DNA of 64,000 nucleotides, from NCBI RefSeq assembly GCF_036084755.1, contig NZ_CP107968.1:5790501-5854500 (forward strand), written 5' to 3'. The notes beneath the pieces are model-generated. The model saw nothing but the letters and a program-made list of their open reading frames with translations, ran no database searches and was not told the origin of the DNA. Position numbers and translations under genes: made by a program. Shown one piece after another: positions 18,589 through 28,180 of this stretch. The DNA comes from Streptomyces sp. NBC_00370 (GTDB lineage Bacteria; Actinomycetota; Actinomycetes; Streptomycetales; Streptomycetaceae). Numbering within the stretch: position 1 is the stretch's first letter; the number at the start of each line of letters is the position of its first letter.

Positions 18589-21477
18589 ATGCGAGCACCG
18601 GTGCAGAAGAAGCGGCCTCGGGGCAACGGCGGCATGACAGCTGACACTCCGGGCGAAGGGCGCCGTAAGCGGGTGCGCAGCCGGCTGTTCGCCGGTGTGG
18701 CGGTCATCGCCGTCACTGTCGTCGCCGCGGGTGTGCCCGGCGTACTCGACGCCTCCACCCGTCTGAACGACGCGCAGCGGCTCGTCACCCTCGCCGAGCT
18801 GAACCGGCAGACCGTGACGCTCGCCCACTCGCTGGCCGACGAACGCGACGAGGCCGTCGTGTACGTGGCGGCGGGACGCCCGGCGAAGGGCGAATCCGAG
18901 AAGGACGCGAAGGACGCGGACGGCCATCAGGTCTCCCGTGAGACCCGCGCACGCGTCGACCGGCAGATCGACGAGATCCGGGCCACCGGATCCGCGTCGG
19001 CCGGGCTGCTCAGGGACCTCTCCACCGTGCCGTCGGTCCGCGCCTCCGCCCTCACCGGCAAGGACGCGGCCCCCGACACGTACCGCGCCTACTCCGACGT
19101 CATCGACGACCTGCACGCGGTCGCCGAGCGGCTCGCCGAACGCGCCCCCGCCGAGGTGGCGGGAGACGTCCGCGCCTCCGTCGACCTCGACAGCGCGGTC
19201 GACCGGGCGTCCGGCACCCGCGCGCTGCTGCTGGGCGCGCTGGCCGTCCCCGCCGACGAGGAGGCGACGACGGTCATCGACCCGGTCACCGGCCTCCCCG
19301 TGCCGTCCTCGGACGATCTGGCGGCCAACAAGAAGAACGACGCGGCGCGCGACGCGCTCAGCGCCGCCGCGCAGCAGACCCGTACGGGTGAACTCGCCGC
19401 GCTCGCCGACTTCGACCGCACCGCGGACAGCCAGACGCGCGACTCTCTCGCCAGGACCGTCACAGGACCCGACATCACGGCGGCCGACGGCTATCTGAAG
19501 AAGCTCACCGACCGCCCGGAACTCTCCGAGTCCGAACGCTCCACCGACCAGGAGAAGGTCAGGACGGCCCTGTCCGCCCGTATCGACCAGATGCGCGGCG
19601 TCGAGGCGGGCCTCGGCAGCGACCAGCTCACCCGGCTCGAAAAGGTCCGCGACGACGACGTCACCGCGCTGGAGCTGCGCTTCGCGCTGCTCGGCGGCCT
19701 GCTGCTGATCGCCGTCGGCGTCGCGACGGCCGTCGCCCGCACGCTGACCCGGCCGCTCGCCGTGCTGCGCATCGGCGCCGCCCGGCTGGCCGAAGCGCCC
19801 GGGACGGCCGAGCCGGTGCGGTTCACCGGCCGCAACGACGAGTTCGCCCAGGTCGTACGGTCCCTCAACGCGCTGCACAGCAGGGTCGCGGGACTTCTCG
19901 ACCGGCCCGGTCCCGCGGGCGGCGAGACGACCGTTCCGATCGGCGCCAGTGCGAAGGCCGCGGCGCGGGGCACGGGATTCCAGGAGCACCCCGCGCTCCA
20001 GGAGCACACGGAACTCCACGGGCGCACGGAACCGCACGACCAGGCGGAACTCCAGGAGCGCGCGGAGCGGACGGCCGCCGAGCTGGCCCAGCTCCGGAAC
20101 ACCGTCGAGCACACCTTCGTCAACCTCTCGCTGCGCTCCCTCGGCCTCGTCGAGCGGCAGCTCGGCGTCATCGAGTCGCTGGAGGAGCGCGAGCAGGACC
20201 CGGACCGGCTCGCCACGCTCTACAAGCTCGACCATCTCGCGACGGTCATGCGCCGCCACAGCGAGAACCTGCTGGTCCTCGCCGAGCACGAACACGGCCA
20301 CAGCCACCCGGGCCCGGTACCGCTCGTGGACATGCTGCGCGCCGCCGTCAGCGAGATCGAGCGGTACGAGCGGATCACCATCCAGTCGCTGCCCACGCAC
20401 GCCCAGGTGGCCGGCTTCGCCGCCGACGACCTCAGCCATCTCGTCGCCGAGCTGCTGGAGAACGCCACCTCGTTCTCGCCGCCCGACGCCCAGGTGGAGC
20501 TGTCCGGGTGGCTGCTGGAGAGCGGCGAGGTGATGATCTCCGTCCAGGACAAGGGCATCGGCATGCCCGAGGACCGGCTCGGCGAGCTGAACGCCCTGCT
20601 GGACGAGGCGACCCAGAGCGACCGGGGCGAACAGGGCGCGCGTGACGCCTGGGGCACCCCCGGCGCACCCGCCGAGAGCGAGGGCCTGGGACTGCGGGTG
20701 GCGGCCCTCCTCGCCGCGCGGCACGGCGTACGGGTCCATCTGCGCAAGCACGAGGACGGCGGGCTCGCGGCCGTCGTCGTACTGCCGCAGGCGCTGCTCC
20801 CCGCGACGCAGCCCTCGACCGGTCCGGTCCCGGCCGCCGCGTACCCGCCGCCGACGGCGGGACCCGCGCCCGCCGTCCACCAGCCGGGCTCGGTCGCCGA
20901 GGCCAACTCCAACGCGCTGCCCGCCCGTCAGGCCGCTCCCGATCCGCTGATCGCGGCGGCCGAGGAGACGATCCGGGAGGTGGAGAGCGAGACGGCGGCG
21001 CCCGCGCGGGTCCGTCAGGACCCGTACGCCGTCGGCCCCGACACGCACGAACGGGCCGACGTCGACCAGGACACCTTCACCATGCGGCTGCCGCGCCAGC
21101 AGAGCGCGGAGCCGGACCCGGCACCCGCGTCCGAGCCGGCTGCATCCGCGTCCGAACCGGCGGCATCCGCGTCCGAACCCGAACAGACAGGACCGGAGTC
21201 CGATCCGGTCACCGACAAGGGACTGCCCAAGCGAACCCCCAAGGTCGTCAAGGCGGCGACCTCGCCCACCGAACGCACCGGCAGCGTCGACGCCGAGGAG
21301 CTGCGCCGCCGGCTCGGCGGCTTCCACCAGGGCGCGAAGGACGGCCGACGCGATGTCGAGGCCGAACTCACCGAGCGTTCCGACCGGACGGACGGCACCG
21401 ACCCGATAGCGTCCGGAGCGCGGGACGGGGAACGTGACGAAGAGGCGGGGGAGACAGTCGAGGAGGCACGCAGTTGA
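18589..21477 (+). CDS. cvnA: conservon sensor protein CvnA (nitrate/sulfonate-sensing-type histidine kinase-like ATPase)
   Basis: A 962-residue membrane protein and first gene of a conservon. A basic N-terminus leads to transmembrane segment 1 (about 32-52), a large extracytoplasmic helical sensor domain (about 53-358), transmembrane segment 2 (about 360-384), a HAMP domain, a helical region (HTFVNLSLRSLGLVERQL) and a GHKL ATPase domain with N box LLENATSFSPPD (about 622-633) and G box DKGIGMP. No canonical HExxT/P phospho-acceptor is evident, as is usual for CvnA. The C-terminal 220 residues are Ala/Glu/Pro-rich and disordered, with a short repeat (SASEPAA). The start at 18589 is used; ATG at 18634 is the alternative. 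The partners are the next three genes. Confidence 0.9.
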   Translation: MRAPVQKKRPRGNGGMTADTPGEGRRKRVRSRLFAGVAVIAVTVVAAGVPGVLDASTRLNDAQRLVTLAELNRQTVTLAHSLADERDEAVVYVAAGRPAKGESEKDAKDADGHQVSRETRARVDRQIDEIRATGSASAGLLRDLSTVPSVRASALTGKDAAPDTYRAYSDVIDDLHAVAERLAERAPAEVAGDVRASVDLDSAVDRASGTRALLLGALAVPADEEATTVIDPVTGLPVPSSDDLAANKKNDAARDALSAAAQQTRTGELAALADFDRTADSQTRDSLARTVTGPDITAADGYLKKLTDRPELSESERSTDQEKVRTALSARIDQMRGVEAGLGSDQLTRLEKVRDDDVTALELRFALLGGLLLIAVGVATAVARTLTRPLAVLRIGAARLAEAPGTAEPVRFTGRNDEFAQVVRSLNALHSRVAGLLDRPGPAGGETTVPIGASAKAAARGTGFQEHPALQEHTELHGRTEPHDQAELQERAERTAAELAQLRNTVEHTFVNLSLRSLGLVERQLGVIESLEEREQDPDRLATLYKLDHLATVMRRHSENLLVLAEHEHGHSHPGPVPLVDMLRAAVSEIERYERITIQSLPTHAQVAGFAADDLSHLVAELLENATSFSPPDAQVELSGWLLESGEVMISVQDKGIGMPEDRLGELNALLDEATQSDRGEQGARDAWGTPGAPAESEGLGLRVAALLAARHGVRVHLRKHEDGGLAAVVVLPQALLPATQPSTGPVPAAAYPPPTAGPAPAVHQPGSVAEANSNALPARQAAPDPLIAAAEETIREVESETAAPARVRQDPYAVGPDTHERADVDQDTFTMRLPRQQSAEPDPAPASEPAASASEPAASASEPEQTGPESDPVTDKGLPKRTPKVVKAATSPTERTGSVDAEELRRRLGGFHQGAKDGRRDVEAELTERSDRTDGTDPIASGARDGERDEEAGETVEEARS

Positions 21478-21968
21478 CAGCGACCAGCACATTCGGACTG
21501 AGTAGCGAAGCCCGAAACCTGCACTGGCTGTTGAGCAACCTCGTCGAGGAGGTGCCAGGAGTACGTTCCGTCGCGGTCGTCTCGTCCGACGGACTGCTGC
21601 TGCTCTCCTCCGACCAGGAGCACAACAGCGCGGCCGCGGAGGCGGCGGGCGGCGCGCCACGCGGCGAGGGACCGCGCGGCGCTGGCGCCGACCTGGCCAC
21701 CATCGTCTCCGGTATCGCCAGCCTCACCATCGGGGCGGCGAAGCTCATGGACGGCGGCGGGGTCAAGCAGACGATGGTCGCCATGGAGGAGGGCAGCGTC
21801 TTCATCATGTCCATCAGCGACGGCTCGTTGCTCGGCGTGCACGCGGCGCCCGACTGCGACATGAGCGTCGTGGCGTACCACATGGCGCTCTTCGTAGGCC
21901 GCGCCGGACACGTACTGACGCCCGAACTCCGCAGCGAGCTGCGCAAGTCCATGGAGAACGCCCGATGA
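21474..21968 (+). CDS. cvnB: conservon roadblock/LC7-domain protein CvnB
   Basis: A 164-residue roadblock/LC7 protein, the family that binds and regulates small GTPases. The fold is seen in LHWLLSNLVEEVPGVRSVAVVSSDGLLLL and in the C-terminal GSVFIMSISDGSLLGVHA and VAYHMALFV strands. The region between (about 52-72) carries a Gly/Ala/Arg insertion. The start is TTG at 21474, supported by a perfect AGGAGG seven bases before it and by the TTGA overlap with the cvnA stop. It should couple the sensor to the GTPase CvnD. Confidence 0.92.
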   Translation: MTATSTFGLSSEARNLHWLLSNLVEEVPGVRSVAVVSSDGLLLLSSDQEHNSAAAEAAGGAPRGEGPRGAGADLATIVSGIASLTIGAAKLMDGGGVKQTMVAMEEGSVFIMSISDGSLLGVHAAPDCDMSVVAYHMALFVGRAGHVLTPELRSELRKSMENAR

Positions 21969-22390
21969 CCGCCGCCGCCGGGTCCGCCGGTGCCCAGGCC
22001 CGCAGACTCCCGGTGCGCGGCGGCGACCGCCGCCCCGCGCGGGTCCGCCCGTACTCGCTCACCGGCGGCCGTACCCGCTTCGGGCACGTGCTGCTCGTGG
22101 AGACGTTCGTCGCCGCGATCGAGGCGGCCGACGAGCGCAGGGAACTGACCGACGGCGGGGCCGCGTGGCGCGTCATGCCCGAGATGCGGGCCATCGTCGA
22201 ACTGTGCCGCCGGATGCGCACGGTCGCCGAGATCTCGGCGCTGCTGAAGATGCCGCTCGGGGTGGTCCGGGTGCTCCTCAGCGACCTGGCCGACCAGGGA
22301 AAGATCCGTGTGTACGGGACGGGGCACGGCACCGGCCAGCCCGACCGTGCGCTGCTGGAAAGGGTGTTGGATGGACTCCGCCGTCTCTGA
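21965..22390 (+). CDS. cvnC: conservon DUF742 protein CvnC
   Basis: A 141-residue DUF742 protein. The signatures VRPYSLTGGRTR near the start and a winged-helix-like C-terminal half (RRMRTVAEISALLKMPLGVVRVLLSDLADQGKI-type residues) are visible. ATG at 21965 overlaps the cvnB stop (ATGA). DUF742 proteins are obligate members of conservons and may link the complex to DNA or to the GTPase. Confidence 0.92.
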   Translation: MTAAAGSAGAQARRLPVRGGDRRPARVRPYSLTGGRTRFGHVLLVETFVAAIEAADERRELTDGGAAWRVMPEMRAIVELCRRMRTVAEISALLKMPLGVVRVLLSDLADQGKIRVYGTGHGTGQPDRALLERVLDGLRRL

Positions 22391-23039
22391 CGTGACCGCC
22401 GCCCCGGCGGCCGGGCTCTTCGACGGGGCCCCGGGCAGTCCGGCCGACGTGCCCGAGGAACAGCTCCAGGACTGGCAGTTGGACCGCACCCGCGCACCGG
22501 TCGCCACGAAGATCGTCGTCGCCGGCGGCTTCGGTGTCGGCAAGACGACCTTCGTCGGTTCCGTCTCGGAGATCACACCGCTCCAGACCGAGGCGCTGAT
22601 GACGCAGGCGAGCGCGGAGACCGACGACCTCAGCGCGACGCCCGCCAAGCTCACCACGACCGTGGCGATGGACTACGGGCGGATCACGCTCTCCAACGAC
22701 CTGGTGCTGTACATCTTCGGCACGCCGGGACAGCAGCGGTTCTGGTTCATGTGGGACGACCTGGTGCGCGGCGCGATCGGCGCCGTCGTCCTCGCCGACA
22801 CCCGGCGGCTGTCCGACTGCTTCCCCGCGCTCGACTACTTCGAGAGCTGCGGGCTGCCGTACGTCGTCGCCGTCAACCACTTCGAGGGCACCGAGCTGTT
22901 CGAGCCGGACGACGTACGCGAGGCACTGTCCGTCCCGGCGCACATCCCCGTGCTGACCATGGACGCGCGCAACCGGGTCACGGCCGTCGAGTCGCTGCTC
23001 ACCCTGGTGCAGCACGCACTCGACAACACCCAAGAGTAG
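22371..23039 (+). CDS. cvnD: conservon GTPase CvnD
   Basis: A 222-residue Ras-like GTPase of the MglA/CvnD group. The P-loop is GGFGVGKTT (about 52-60), switch 2 is YIFGTPGQQRF, and the base-binding motif is the divergent NHFEG where classical GTPases have NKxD. ATG at 22371 (after GGAAAGGG) lies inside the cvnC gene, with a 20-base overlap. It completes the sensor, roadblock, DUF742 and GTPase set. Conservons act at the membrane like eukaryotic G-protein systems and affect development and antibiotic production in S. coelicolor. Confidence 0.92.
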   Translation: MDSAVSDVTAAPAAGLFDGAPGSPADVPEEQLQDWQLDRTRAPVATKIVVAGGFGVGKTTFVGSVSEITPLQTEALMTQASAETDDLSATPAKLTTTVAMDYGRITLSNDLVLYIFGTPGQQRFWFMWDDLVRGAIGAVVLADTRRLSDCFPALDYFESCGLPYVVAVNHFEGTELFEPDDVREALSVPAHIPVLTMDARNRVTAVESLLTLVQHALDNTQE

Positions 23040-23131
23040 CCTGCGTACCGGTCCGACCCCCCTTCGCAACGCCACCCCCCACACGACCAGTGCACGCACC
23101 GCGCACCACGCACCCCGACGGAGAGCCCGCC

Positions 23132-24370
23132 ATGCGGAAGATACTCATTGTGGGAGCCGGCCAGTCCGGTCTCCAACTCGCCCTCGGACTGCAGTCCCAG
23201 GGCTACGAGGTCACCCTGATGTCCAACCGCACGGCGGACGAGATCCGGACCGGCCGGGTCATGTCCACCCAGTGCATGTTCCACACCGCGCTCCAGCACG
23301 AGCGCGATCTCCAGCTCAACTTCTGGGAGTCGCAGGCCCCGAGGATCGTGGGGCTCGGCGTTTCCGTCGCCGCGCCCGACGCGAGCCGCGCGATCGACTG
23401 GGTCGGCAAGCTCGACGGCTACGCGCAGTCCGTCGACCAGCGGGTCAAGATGGCCGGCTGGATGGAGACCTTCGCGCAGCGCGGCGGCCAGTTGGTCATC
23501 CACGGCGCTGCCGTCTCCGACCTGGACTTCTTCGCCCGCACCTACGACCTGGTGCTCGTCTCCGCCGGCAAGGGCGAACTGGTCTCCATGTTCGGCAGGG
23601 ACGCCTCACGTTCCCCGTACGACGCCCCGCAGCGCGCCCTCGCCGTCGCCTATGTGCACGGTCTCGGCCCGCGCCCCGAACACCCGGACTTCGACGCCGT
23701 CCGGTGCAATTTGGTGCCGGGCGTGGGCGAGTTGTTCGTCATGCCGACCTTCACCACCAGCGGACGCGCCGACATCCTCTTCTGGGAGGGCGTACCGGGC
23801 GGCCCGCTCGACGCCTTCCAGGGCGTCAAGGACCCGGCCGAGCATCTGTCGCTCACGCTGGAGCTGATGGAGCGCTTCACGCCGTGGGAGTACGCGCGCG
23901 CCACCAAGGTCGAGCTGACGGACGCCAACGGCACGCTCTCCGGGCGGTACGCGCCGACCGTACGCAACCCCGTGGGGCAACTGCCGGGCGGCGGGCTCGT
24001 CCTGGGGGTCGCCGATGTCGTCGTCGCCAACGACCCGATCACCGGGCAGGGCTCCAACTCGGCGGCCAAATGCGCCGCCGCGTACCTCGAAGCGATAGTG
24101 GCGCACGGCGACGGGCAGTTCGACGAGGCGTGGATGCGGGCCACGTTCGACCGCTACTGGGACACCGCCCAGCACGTCACCAAGTGGACCAACGCCATGC
24201 TGGGCGTGCCGCCGGAGCATGTGCTCAACCTGATCGGCGCGGGGGGTCAACTCCAGCCGGTCGCCGACCGGTTCGCCAACGGCTTCAACGATCCGGCCGA
24301 CTTCGAGAACTTCTTCTACGAGCCCGCCCTGACGAACGCGTACCTCGCCGAGGTGTCGGGCGCCGCCTGA
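23132..24370 (+). CDS. StyA-like FAD-dependent styrene/indole monooxygenase family protein
   Basis: A 412-residue flavoprotein with an N-terminal Rossmann motif VGAGQSGLQLALGL and the second FAD-binding region GLVLGVADVVVANDPITGQGSNSAAK. The overall pattern fits the styrene/indole monooxygenase (StyA) group, two-component enzymes that need a separate NADH:FAD reductase; none is encoded nearby. ATG at 23132 follows GGAGAG. It lies 92 bases after cvnD on the same strand and is probably part of the conservon transcript, in the position where other conservons carry a cytochrome P450. Substrate unknown. Confidence 0.85.
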   Translation: MRKILIVGAGQSGLQLALGLQSQGYEVTLMSNRTADEIRTGRVMSTQCMFHTALQHERDLQLNFWESQAPRIVGLGVSVAAPDASRAIDWVGKLDGYAQSVDQRVKMAGWMETFAQRGGQLVIHGAAVSDLDFFARTYDLVLVSAGKGELVSMFGRDASRSPYDAPQRALAVAYVHGLGPRPEHPDFDAVRCNLVPGVGELFVMPTFTTSGRADILFWEGVPGGPLDAFQGVKDPAEHLSLTLELMERFTPWEYARATKVELTDANGTLSGRYAPTVRNPVGQLPGGGLVLGVADVVVANDPITGQGSNSAAKCAAAYLEAIVAHGDGQFDEAWMRATFDRYWDTAQHVTKWTNAMLGVPPEHVLNLIGAGGQLQPVADRFANGFNDPADFENFFYEPALTNAYLAEVSGAA

Positions 24371-24393: not shown

Positions 24394-25578
24394 TCAGAGC
24401 GCGGCGTCCGGGCGTACGGCGCCGAGCAGCGGGTTCGCGGCGATCGGCGACACCTTGACGGCGGCGCCGGGACGCGGTGCCTGGACGACCTTTCCGTCCC
24501 CCAGGTAGATCGCCACATGCGTGGCCTTGGGGAAGTAGACCACCAGGTCGCCGGGGCGCAGCTGGTTCAGCGGCACCCGGGGGAGCCGGCGCCACTGCTC
24601 CTGGCTGGTGCGCGGGATCGTCCGTCCCGCGTGCGCCCAGGACTGCGAGGTCAGCCCGGAGCAGTCGAAGGCGCCGGGCCCCTCGGCGCCCCACTGGTAC
24701 GGCTTGCCGACCTGCCCGACGGCGTACCGCACGGCGGCGCCGCCCTGCGCCGACGGTGCGGTGCGGCCGGTCCGGCTCTGCGGGCCGAGCGCGCCCGAGT
24801 CGACCAGTTTCCGCTGGGCCGCCTCCGTGCCGCTCTGCTCAAGGGAGTTGAGCTGGGCGACCTGGTCACCGCTGAGCCCGGCGAGCAGCGCGGTGACCTG
24901 GCGGAGCTTCGCCGCGGCCGTGTCGCGCTGCTGCTTCTTGCGCGCGGTGAGCGACTGCTGGGTGGCGAGCGCCTTGCGGGACGCGGTGGCGAGGGCGTCG
25001 GCGTGCTTCTCGCCCTTGGTGAGACCGGAGAGCGTCGCCGCCCTGCCGCGCGCGGCGCGCGCCAGCAGCCGCCCCTGGTCGACGGCGTGCTGCGGGTCGT
25101 CGGCGAGCAGCAGCCGCAGATAGTCCGAGAGGTCGGACTGGCCGTGGTACTGGGCGCGGGCGAGCTGTCCGACGTCGGCGCGGTTACGGGCGAGGGCGGC
25201 GCGGGCCCGGGCGAGCGAGGCGGTCAGCTGCTTCGTGGCAGCGCGCTGGCGGGTGAGGGCCACCTCGGTGGTGTTGTAGGCCTCGCCCGCTTCCTCCGAC
25301 TGCTGGTAGAGCTGCTGAAGCCGGGTGAGCATGGCGGGGACGGTCTCCGGGACGGCGCCGGGGGCAGCGGGCGCGGCGGGCGCTGCCGGGGCTGCCGGGG
25401 CGCCGGGTGGCCCGGGTGCCGCGGGCGCGGTGGTCGCGCCGGTGGCTCCGGGGGACGGCGCGGCAGCTGCGCCGCCCGGTGGCTCGGCGACGGCGGTCGA
25501 GGCGAACGGCACCGCCGCCAGCACGGTCGCGGTGGCCAGCGCCGCCGTACAGACGGATCGCAGAAGTCTGCCTGACAC
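24394..25578 (-). CDS. secreted NlpC/P60 peptidoglycan endopeptidase
   Basis: A 394-residue cell-wall hydrolase. It has a signal peptide (about 1-31), an Ala/Pro-rich linker (about 32-78), a coiled-coil domain (about 80-255, with many Arg/Ala/Gln heptads) and the C-terminal NlpC/P60 papain-like domain with catalytic Cys306 in FDCSGLT and His354 in THVAIYLG. This is the RipA/PcsB-like arrangement in which the coiled coil controls the enzyme. GTG at 25578 is preceded by GGAGG. It is convergent with the monooxygenase gene, only 23 bases apart. Confidence 0.92.
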   Translation of the reverse strand: MSGRLLRSVCTAALATATVLAAVPFASTAVAEPPGGAAAAPSPGATGATTAPAAPGPPGAPAAPAAPAAPAAPGAVPETVPAMLTRLQQLYQQSEEAGEAYNTTEVALTRQRAATKQLTASLARARAALARNRADVGQLARAQYHGQSDLSDYLRLLLADDPQHAVDQGRLLARAARGRAATLSGLTKGEKHADALATASRKALATQQSLTARKKQQRDTAAAKLRQVTALLAGLSGDQVAQLNSLEQSGTEAAQRKLVDSGALGPQSRTGRTAPSAQGGAAVRYAVGQVGKPYQWGAEGPGAFDCSGLTSQSWAHAGRTIPRTSQEQWRRLPRVPLNQLRPGDLVVYFPKATHVAIYLGDGKVVQAPRPGAAVKVSPIAANPLLGAVRPDAAL

Positions 25579-25753: not shown

Positions 25754-28180
25754 TCAGCCCAACGGCAGCAGATAGAACATCCGGTCGCGTCCGACGACCA
25801 CGTCCCTGCCTGCGGCCAGGGCACGGTACGGCGCCTGGGCCACGGGTTCGGGCGCGGGTGCGGGCGACTGGCTCGGGGTCCCGCCCGCGTTCTGGAACTT
25901 CCACAGCCGGCGGCCGTCCGCCGCGTCGAACGCGGTCAGCTGCAGACCGTCCCCCGCGAGCAGTGTCCTGCCGCCGGCGACCGGCGTCACCGCCGGCACC
26001 CCGCTCCACACGGCGGCCTCCGTGGACCGCTTCCAGCGCGCCTCGCCGGTGGCCGGGTCGATCGCGTACACGTCCTGGAACCGGTTGGCGACATACAGCG
26101 TGGAGCCGTCGACGGCCCCGGTGCCGAAGGCCAGCGGCGCGGTCCCCGCGGCAGCGGCCCTGCCCTTCAGCAGCCAGCGCCGCTTGCCGTTCCCCGCGCC
26201 GACCGCGTACAGATCGGCGCCGGCGGCGCCGAACAGCAGCCCGGTGGCGTCCCCCGCCACGGCCCCGCGAGGTGTCACGGCGCCCAGCACCTTGGACCAC
26301 TTGCGGGCGCCCGTGGCCCGGTCGAAGGAGTGGAACATCGAGTGGCCCTTGGCCGCCTTGAGTTGGGCGGGCGTGAGCGACGCGCTGTCCTGGCGTACCA
26401 CGATCTCGTCGGGCAGCAGCGCGACGAGCTGGTACCTCGGGACGTGCGGCGCACGGCCGTTGGAGACGGCGGCGCGCCACAGCAGCTTGCGCCCGGTGAC
26501 GTCGTACGCGAACAGGTATGTACGGACGGCCGGTTTCGCGGCCGTACCCGTCTTCGCCGCGCCGGTGAGCCAGACGACCGAACCGGACTGACCGGTGATC
26601 CCGGACAGCTCCAGCGCGCCGCCGTCGGCGAGTTGGTCCGCGAACGGGACGTGGTGCCGGACCGCCCCGTCGACCGGCGAGAGCCAGCGGAACTCGTCGG
26701 CCCCGACGACGAAGACGAGCCCGTCGGGCGTCGGCTGCGCCCGTAGCACCGAGCCTGCCTCGGGCCGCTCCCAGCGGGCCCGCCCGGTGTGGACGTCGAC
26801 CAACGTGGTGGCGGCGGACGCCGTCAGGACGAGATACCGGTCCTGCAGCACGGCCGCGCTCGCCTCGGTCTTGTGCTGGTACGCCCACCGGGGCTCCGGC
26901 GGCACACCGGGAACAGCGACCCGTCGCGGGGCCGGCTTCGCCTTCGCGGGAGCGTCCTCCCCACCCGAGGCGAAGGCCAACACCCCGCCCCCGCCCAGCA
27001 CAAGCCCAGCAGCCCCGGCCAGCACCCCGGTAAGCAGAGAACGCCGGTCCACCCGCGCGACCGCGGGCCGGGTGGCGGGCGGCCGACCGGGCACGGGCGG
27101 CGGAGTCGGCCGAGCGACGGGAGGCGGCCCGGCGGCCGCGTGGGCGTGGGCGGCGGTGGTGGCCCCGTACGGGGCGGCGACCGGCGGGGCGGCGACCGGG
27201 GCGGCGGCAGGCGGCAGGGGAGCGGACGGCACTGCGGGCGCCGGCGCGGTCGCCGTGCCCAGGTCGGCCGTGTGCGGCGGCAGTTGCTGCTCCTGCGGCT
27301 CCAACGCCGCTACCGCCGAGGCCCGTTCCGCGACGGCCCTCTCCAGCCGTTCCGGCAGCCAGCCGGCCGACGCCAGGGCGTTCGCGCCCTCCAGCGCCAG
27401 GGCCGCCGCCACCTGGCCCGCCGTCGGGCGGCGGGCCGGTTCCTTCGCCAGACAGGAGGCGACCACCGGACGCAACTCGGCCGGCACGCCGTCGAGTCGG
27501 GCCTCCGCCCCGCCGATCTCCGTGCTGTCGGCGAACGGTGTCGTGCCCGTCGCCGCGTACGCCAGCAGCAGGCCCAGGACGAAGATGTCGGACGCCGTTC
27601 CCGGCTCGCCGCCCGCGACCTGTTCCGGGGTGAGGTAGCCGAGCCGTACCGACAGCCGGCCGCCCGCGTCCAGTCGCGCGGACGCCGCTGCGCCCAGGGC
27701 GCCGAAAGCCGTGAGGCGCGGGCCGTCGGCGGCCAGCAGGACGGTTTCGGCGGAGAGTCCCTGCAAAACCGTGCCCGCCGGGTGCACGCGGGCCAGGGTC
27801 TCGGCGAGTGCGGCGCCCAGTACCCGTACCGACCGCTCGGGCAGCGGCCCGGCGACGGCGATGGCCTCCGCGAGCGTCAGCCCCGGCACATAGGCGCTGG
27901 CCGCCCAGGGCGCGGGCTCCGCCGCCTCGTCCGTACGGGAGTCGAGCGGCGGGCGTACCCAGCCGCCGGAGAGCCGCTCGGCCGTGCGCACCTCGGCCTC
28001 GAACCGGCGGCGGAAGGCGGTCGCACCGGCCAGTTCGGGGCGGGCCACGGACAGGACGACCACGGCGGCGCCCTCGTCGGCGCCGCGCGCGAGATACTCC
28101 ACCGCGCTGGCGCTCGCGCCGCTGTGCGCGAGCAGTGTGTACGGCCCGACCTGACGTAAGACACGCCCTACCGGCTCCAT
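25754..28180 (-). CDS. membrane serine/threonine pseudokinase with PQQ-like beta-propeller domain
   Basis: An 808-residue protein. The N-terminal domain (about 11-265) has the outline of a bacterial STPK, including SAYVPGLTLAEAI, YLTPEQVAGG and SDIFVLGLLLAYAATGTTPF. However, the VAIK lysine is absent (VVVLSVARPE), HRDLKPxN is replaced by LQGLSAETVLL and DFG by AFG (158-160). A Pro/Ala-rich segment (about 300-375) precedes one transmembrane segment (about 380-403). The C-terminal 390 residues contain at least six PQQ-like blades (VDVHTGRARWE, YDVTGRKLLW, FDRATGARKW, GAGNGKRRW, IDPATGEARW, FDAADGRRLW) and should lie outside the cell. This looks like a ligand-binding propeller coupled to a non-catalytic kinase fold. 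Confidence 0.88.
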   Translation of the reverse strand: MEPVGRVLRQVGPYTLLAHSGASASAVEYLARGADEGAAVVVLSVARPELAGATAFRRRFEAEVRTAERLSGGWVRPPLDSRTDEAAEPAPWAASAYVPGLTLAEAIAVAGPLPERSVRVLGAALAETLARVHPAGTVLQGLSAETVLLAADGPRLTAFGALGAAASARLDAGGRLSVRLGYLTPEQVAGGEPGTASDIFVLGLLLAYAATGTTPFADSTEIGGAEARLDGVPAELRPVVASCLAKEPARRPTAGQVAAALALEGANALASAGWLPERLERAVAERASAVAALEPQEQQLPPHTADLGTATAPAPAVPSAPLPPAAAPVAAPPVAAPYGATTAAHAHAAAGPPPVARPTPPPVPGRPPATRPAVARVDRRSLLTGVLAGAAGLVLGGGGVLAFASGGEDAPAKAKPAPRRVAVPGVPPEPRWAYQHKTEASAAVLQDRYLVLTASAATTLVDVHTGRARWERPEAGSVLRAQPTPDGLVFVVGADEFRWLSPVDGAVRHHVPFADQLADGGALELSGITGQSGSVVWLTGAAKTGTAAKPAVRTYLFAYDVTGRKLLWRAAVSNGRAPHVPRYQLVALLPDEIVVRQDSASLTPAQLKAAKGHSMFHSFDRATGARKWSKVLGAVTPRGAVAGDATGLLFGAAGADLYAVGAGNGKRRWLLKGRAAAAGTAPLAFGTGAVDGSTLYVANRFQDVYAIDPATGEARWKRSTEAAVWSGVPAVTPVAGGRTLLAGDGLQLTAFDAADGRRLWKFQNAGGTPSQSPAPAPEPVAQAPYRALAAGRDVVVGRDRMFYLLPLG

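Follow-up and report, generated by a model that had tools for sequence, protein, structure and literature searches.

A 64,000-nucleotide stretch of the Streptomyces sp. NBC_00370 genome (the window, by which we mean the whole stretch, at 5.79-5.85 Mb of a one-contig genome of 8.6 Mb) contains a conservon, the gene set cvnA-cvnB-cvnC-cvnD, followed by a gene for a flavin adenine dinucleotide (FAD)-dependent monooxygenase of group E, the styrene/indole type. Comparison with related loci suggests that this enzyme belongs to the side of the system formed by CvnC and the small GTPase CvnD and not to the kinase side, because some genomes have cvnA-cvnB but no enzyme, and some loci have cvnD and the enzyme but no cvnA-C beside them. 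Combining these sequence comparisons with the analogy of a mycobacterial conservon, we tentatively propose that the monooxygenase encoded by the fifth gene is an effector of CvnD and probably what the GTPase switch controls. We rate the chance that this proposal is right as close to even, if somewhat short of it.

Natural deletions of the conservon

A sample of 150 genomes at least 90% complete was drawn evenly from the genus, which avoids the bias of best hits. The monooxygenase was found in 140 of them, and a CvnB of at least 74% identity in the same 140 genomes. Nine of the ten genomes that lack the monooxygenase keep cvnA-cvnB of a conservon of the window's type, which is probably the cvn5 type (loci L279-L287). 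The nine relic CvnBs have 64-69% identity and are nested in the clade of the window conservon's CvnB (support 100/100 and 99/99). Eight of the nine loci have nlpC, GH25, MarR or lon of the window neighbourhood nearby; L287, in which the side beyond cvnB is off the contig, shows none. An nlpC-like gene directly follows cvnB in L279, L282, L283 and L284, and the cvnA-cvnB pair is inverted between nlpC and MarR in L285 and L286. No cvnC, cvnD or monooxygenase was detected in the DNA of the nine relic loci by tblastn at E 0.1. A genome-wide search of all ten genomes, which covered the enzyme and CvnC and not CvnD, gave no monooxygenase match and no CvnC above 50% identity. In the tenth genome (G071), no such CvnB is among the matches listed. 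Orphan roadblock genes flanked by conservon genes have been noted earlier and interpreted as GTPase loss (PMC4316618). The nine cases go beyond those orphans in that the monooxygenase is missing along with the GTPase.

Other loci retain cvnD together with the enzyme. L159 (genome G157) has cvnD (76%), the monooxygenase (58%) and a downstream nlpC, and cvnB and cvnC are missing from their place; the whole set is present in L144 from G171, a genome of the same genus as G157. L172 and L188 are cvnD-monooxygenase units with no cvnA-C in more than 7 kb upstream.

Linkage within and beyond Streptomyces

A sequence-only reading of the window had named random neighbours of this conservon in related genomes as the finding that would speak against a partnership. 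A random neighbourhood is rejected by the genus sample, in which the linkage is near-invariant: in 139 of the 140 genomes, cvnB and the monooxygenase gene share a strand, with 1487-2805 bases between their first coordinates. In the 140th, G109, the two genes are on different contigs, and cvnC-cvnD precede the enzyme on the enzyme's contig (L087). Of the 19 orthologues with the lowest scores in the sample (67-83% identity), 18 loci were taken, and every one is linked; L100 and L101, loci with tandem paralogues, are unlinked. Among the named Streptomyces loci (L001-L080, the best 80 of at least 579), cvnD is directly upstream of the monooxygenase in all 80. The full set of four cvn genes was detected in 78, the misses being L055, near a contig end, and L057, where cvnB was undetected. 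The linkage exceeds chance. Two other neighbours, nlpC and lon, are likewise syntenic in the genus.

For a wider comparison we considered 200 loci (L001-L080, L082-L101 and L132-L231; monooxygenase pieces shorter than 330 residues were skipped), a non-random set that combines those 80 best matches (of at least 579) with further loci picked from listed matches. About 4 to 19 kb of DNA was examined per locus, often with 2 kb downstream only. A locus was called linked when cvnD lies upstream in the same orientation at no more than 1.7 kb, or when both cvnB and cvnC lie within 2.5 kb; L172 was assigned by hand, and L216, which has a conservon about 4 kb off on the opposite strand, was counted as unlinked. 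By this definition 157 loci are linked: 149 have all four cvn genes, seven have cvnD but not all of the others, and one has cvnB-cvnC. A further 33 loci, L132-L164, come from the window's family, and one of them, L162, belongs to the genus. The cvn set is complete in 21 of the 33, with an enzyme 64-85% identical, and L159 has only cvnD. All 12 loci at 62-66% identity from the families f16 and f43 also have the four genes; a further f43 copy (L200, 44%) is unlinked. The 48 loci of the family f15 include 20 with all four cvn genes (37-57%), 24 that are unlinked, and three with only a cvnD or cvnD-like gene (L172, L188 and L228). nlpC was undetected beside the linked f15, f16 and f43 loci. In eight f16/f43 loci the predicted monooxygenase start shares 4 bases with the stop of cvnD, which, as far as the predicted frames can tell, points to translational coupling. 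The linkage between conservon and monooxygenase extends to other genera and to three other families, and it is frequently absent among more distant relatives of the enzyme.

Individual loci show further arrangements. In L188 (7389-10600), cvnD is followed by two tandem monooxygenase genes without cvnA-C. The CvnD-like neighbour of the enzyme in L228 is a possible pseudo-GTPase. An opposite-strand open reading frame of 393 aa, perhaps a transposase, lies between cvnD and the monooxygenase at L214:3591-4769.

Phylogenetic comparison

In a tree of 78 selected CvnDs, from which L172 (piece too short) was dropped and L228 (long branch) was removed, the linked CvnDs need three label changes. A single clade of linked CvnDs (39 rows, L188 excluded) is not rejected by the approximately unbiased (AU) test (p 0.387). 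The linked CvnDs appear compatible with one old partnership or lineage. In the monooxygenase tree (137 sequences, including 10 of the 80 named loci), the linked rows fall in separate groups with unlinked ones between them, and the label of full linkage requires at least five changes (starred branches); gain and repeated loss of linkage are indistinguishable in this tree.

A number of observations weigh against placing the enzyme under the GTPase. The nine relic loci may represent one to three losses, with a support of 43/18 for grouping them in one clade. Moreover, cvnC, cvnD and the monooxygenase gene are adjacent, so that one deletion may remove all three without functional meaning. L159 has 2.5 kb before cvnD, up to the contig end, and its cvnA may be elsewhere; its monooxygenase is a long branch and may be decaying. 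In L223 (5973-8414; family f15), cvnB-cvnC are followed by the monooxygenase with cvnD undetected between them. In L228 (2000-4097), the monooxygenase adjoins a CvnD-like protein (29% identity) that lacks the P-loop and the other nucleotide motifs. Solo CvnDs without a monooxygenase exist (L259, L262, L265 and L269). The monooxygenase family occurs without a conservon in 43 of the 200 loci, and 11 of the 33 further loci of the window's family are unlinked (46-64%), some of these being second copies and some the sole copy listed. An AU p value above 0.05 is no proof of a clade. Finally, the partial distance correlation with the enzyme, which includes 8 of the 80 named loci, is highest overall for CvnC (0.49, and 0.11 for CvnD). 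Within f15 the values are 0.76 for CvnC and -0.18 for CvnD, and CvnD ranks highest only within the f16 group (0.61). Since the overall correlation favours CvnC over CvnD, CvnC is a possible contact point of the enzyme.

Organization of the locus

All five genes of the locus are on the forward strand. cvnA (18589..21477) encodes a sensor histidine kinase-like protein of 962 aa with an NIT domain (about 18820-19623; Pfam E 2e-31), a HAMP match that is weak and under the Pfam cut-off, and HATPase_c. cvnB (21474..21968) encodes a roadblock/LC7 protein of the MglB type (164 aa; Robl_LC7), cvnC (21965..22390) a DUF742 protein of 141 aa, and cvnD (22371..23039) a small GTPase of the MglA type (222 aa; Pfam ATP_bind_1) with GGFGVGKT, TPGQQR, NHFE and DAR in its translation. 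The ends of the four genes overlap. After 92 bases (23040..23131), the monooxygenase gene (23132..24370) begins with ATG and encodes 412 aa with Smoa_sbd. The coordinates and Pfam domains confirm the arrangement described in the sequence-only reading. No terminator-like and no promoter-like consensus match was found in the 92-base gap, the promoter scan being one for sigma-70 and a poor test for Streptomyces.

The order of histidine kinase-like, roadblock, DUF742 and small GTPase genes is that of a conservon. The motifs agree as well: CvnD has DAR at G5 and NHFE at G4, and CvnA has LPKR, an LPxR motif, at its C-terminus. The group 2 GTPases of conservons have been described with NxFD at G4 and DAR at G5, together with a C-terminal LPxR in CvnA (PMC4316618); the G4 motif of the window's CvnD differs from the published one in its last letter, E.

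Directly downstream of the locus, the reverse strand encodes an NlpC/P60 hydrolase (24394-25578), which adjoins a Ser/Thr-kinase-like protein with a PQQ beta-propeller (25757-28180, also reverse strand).

Regarding which conservon this is, SCO5289 is given as CvnA5, a Lon gene lies upstream of the window conservon, and lon is presumably SCO5285. On these grounds the window conservon is probably cvn5. If so, two published observations apply to it: three cell-wall antibiotics repress gene sets that include all four cvn5 genes (PMC3123327), and an S. venezuelae bldC mutant expresses cvn5 at a lower level (PMC6428758). The identification as cvn1 or cvn2 was rejected. The closest other conservons of the same genome form a tandem pair at 6.09-6.10 Mb (L234 and L235; CvnC 45-50%, CvnD 67-68%), and this pair is probably cvn1 and cvn2. 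The candidate cvn1 with SCO5540 as its fifth gene was likewise rejected, SCO5540 being CvnA2 (PMC9739842).

The monooxygenase and its missing reductase

Group E monooxygenases are otherwise known from styrene and indole breakdown. Smoa_sbd is the sole Pfam domain matched by the window's enzyme (E 1e-42), and this match is the only one to Smoa_sbd in the whole genome. The protein aligns over its full length to solved group E enzymes, best to PDB 7z97 (503 bits), which we take to be VpIndA1. The classic StyA (3ihm) scores 147 bits only, and the NCBIfam equivalog for StyA is missed, with 237 bits against a cut-off of 550. Because of these scores the enzyme is, by sequence, indole-monooxygenase-like and nearer to the indole type than to true StyA, which was rejected. 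The sequence-only reading had called the enzyme StyA-like. Across 207 sequences from linked and unlinked loci, G8, G10, G13, D295, P302, Q306, N309 and other residues are identical in 97% or more; since FAD-site residues are conserved to this degree, an active flavoprotein is expected. The full-length match, Smoa_sbd and the FAD-site residues together place the protein among the group E enzymes of the indole type. Only one alignment column is specific to the linked monooxygenases, and it is shared by 30 of 31 unlinked ones without a reductase.

A paired or fused flavin reductase, characteristic of group E, is missing at the window, as the sequence-only reading had pointed out. That reading had proposed a search for a StyB-type reductase elsewhere; the genome has four matches to PF01613 (flavin reductases), all of them far from the window (0.36, 1.18, 3.82 and 7.97 Mb). 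This absence is general for linked loci: with the four reductases of the window's genome and four fused reductase domains as queries, a flavin reductase was detected in the examined DNA of none of the 157 linked loci. Of the 43 unlinked loci, 16 have one. It is fused to the monooxygenase or immediately adjacent in 14 of these loci and more than 4 kb distant in two; the fused query domains were themselves taken from four of the 16. Because no flavin reductase accompanies them, the linked monooxygenases, as far as gene content indicates, must get reduced FAD elsewhere or not use it.

Sensor architecture of the linked kinases

Among the 64 linked CvnAs scanned with Pfam, 27 of 37 from the window's family have an NIT domain, as against none of 27 from other families (six further linked CvnAs were left out of the count, and L186 is in neither alignment). 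In a simple hydropathy scan, 13 of 16 linked CvnAs checked from the other families have no membrane helix. In L138-L140, L142 and L143, all of the window's family, CvnA is without NIT and the enzyme is still 77-81% identical. Since NIT is present in some linked CvnAs and absent in others, the enzyme is kept with very different kinases. The kinases of the linked loci among L165-L171, L177-L184 and L205-L229 lack NIT and, for the most part, predicted membrane helices; these are apparently cytosolic conservons.

The published accessories CvnE and CvnF overwhelmingly accompany a CvnA without sensor domain (PMC13343842). The monooxygenase shares with them the position directly after cvnD. It is neither a P450 (CvnE) nor a GAF protein (CvnF), and the CvnA of the window is not sensor-less. 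The rule of sensor-less partners is therefore broken by the Streptomyces case and would fit the other families. According to the sequence-only reading, a flavin oxygenase here takes the place of the P450; this holds for the fifth position and not for the kind of CvnA that goes with it.

A proposed model for GTPase control and its alternatives

In the model that we propose, CvnA would receive a signal via its NIT domain, and CvnB, resembling a GTPase-activating protein (GAP), would together with CvnC set the nucleotide state of CvnD. In one of its nucleotide states, CvnD may bind the monooxygenase and switch or place its activity, which is the contact and the direction of control that we infer. 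A general reductase of the cell would supply the enzyme with reduced FAD, and the small molecule that it would oxygenate is probably aromatic or indole-like. Control of an oxygenase by a G-protein complex, as put forward in the sequence-only reading, fits the deletion pattern and the precedent of MfpB and MfpA (PMC9769811). A more far-reaching version, which we find rather doubtful, is that one lineage of MglA-type GTPases has a dedicated flavin monooxygenase as effector, that the switch acts directly through oxygenating a small molecule (or through setting the enzyme free as a regulator) and not through gene expression, and that CvnD replaces the gating role of a dedicated reductase.

The monooxygenase could instead serve the kinase complex as a sensor or modulator, similar to CvnF, responding to oxygen, an aromatic ligand or the redox state of flavin and altering the activity of CvnA (or of CvnB/CvnC). 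CvnF8, in the same fifth position, stimulates CvnA8 (PMC13343842). Because the linked CvnAs of other families have no NIT and mostly no membrane helix, their fifth protein could stand in for the absent sensor. In the window's family, however, most scanned linked CvnAs, including that of the window, have NIT, whereas the published accessories overwhelmingly go with sensor-less CvnAs, and the deletions leave cvnA-cvnB without the enzyme and the enzyme with cvnD. We consider this explanation unlikely. A role in signal production, already put forward in the sequence-only reading, would have the enzyme make or remove a small signal for the NIT domain or another receptor, with the operon shared for dosage and the GTPase untouched. 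The conserved FAD site agrees with this, as do the conservons found in indole prenyltransferase clusters, for whose product a signalling role has been suggested (PMC3617294). The enzyme stays, however, in the families where NIT is absent and at L159, L172 and L188, where no cvnA-C was found beside it, and we regard this possibility as quite unlikely.

The linkage could also be neutral, or merely transcriptional, within a syntenic core region, the enzyme having an unrelated housekeeping role. The synteny of nlpC and lon in the genus is in line with such an explanation, and so is the frequency of unlinked relatives of the enzyme, both in the 200 loci and among the further loci of the window's family. 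But the linkage persists in families where nlpC was not found beside it, cvnB and the enzyme occur in the same 140 of 150 genomes, and the predicted frames overlap in eight loci. A neutral linkage thus seems very unlikely to us.

Control of the enzyme by CvnD would be of interest in several ways. The targets of Streptomyces conservon GTPases are poorly understood, and a fifth gene that is retained across families and absent where the GTPase is gone provides a concrete effector candidate. If the proposal is true, the conservon field gains a chemical readout, and the enzyme would be, to our knowledge, the first GTPase-controlled monooxygenase in bacteria. Group E monooxygenases gain a signalling-associated branch without a reductase of its own.

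Comparison with known systems

S. coelicolor has 13 conservons. The conservon as such is known, and no report of a monooxygenase as a fifth conservon component was found in the open-licence literature searched; as far as this search extends, its group E monooxygenase component is apparently undescribed. The locus resembles Cvn9 and Cvn8 of S. coelicolor in the cvnA-B-C-D order, the domains and the group 2 GTPase motifs. It differs from that class in its fifth gene, which there encodes a P450 (CvnE) or a GAF protein (CvnF) and here a group E flavin monooxygenase that, in this genus, goes with an NIT-bearing CvnA.

Compared with the indole monooxygenases, the likeness lies in the full-length alignment and the FAD-site residues. 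IndA/IndB and IndA1/IndA2B, however, have been described with a reductase of their own and in catabolic clusters (PMC6165268), unlike the conservon-linked enzymes, which have none nearby. Conservons also occur in indole prenyltransferase clusters, and one cluster type encodes a different flavin monooxygenase, SCO7468 (PMC3617294). There, too, a conservon adjoins a flavin monooxygenase gene, but SCO7468 is NADPH-dependent and aldoxime-forming, binds its FAD tightly and has a prenyltransferase in its cluster.

The mfp conservon of mycobacteria provides the precedent for a GTPase effector. In that system the GTPase of the CvnD type is MfpB, and its GAP is MfpD, a protein of the CvnB type; the fifth gene encodes MfpA, which binds MfpB and serves as its effector (PMC9769811). 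The window's conservon is alike in having a fifth gene after the GTPase gene. The two differ in the nature of the fifth protein: MfpA is a pentapeptide protein acting on gyrase, whereas the one described here is an enzyme, whose contact with the GTPase we infer.

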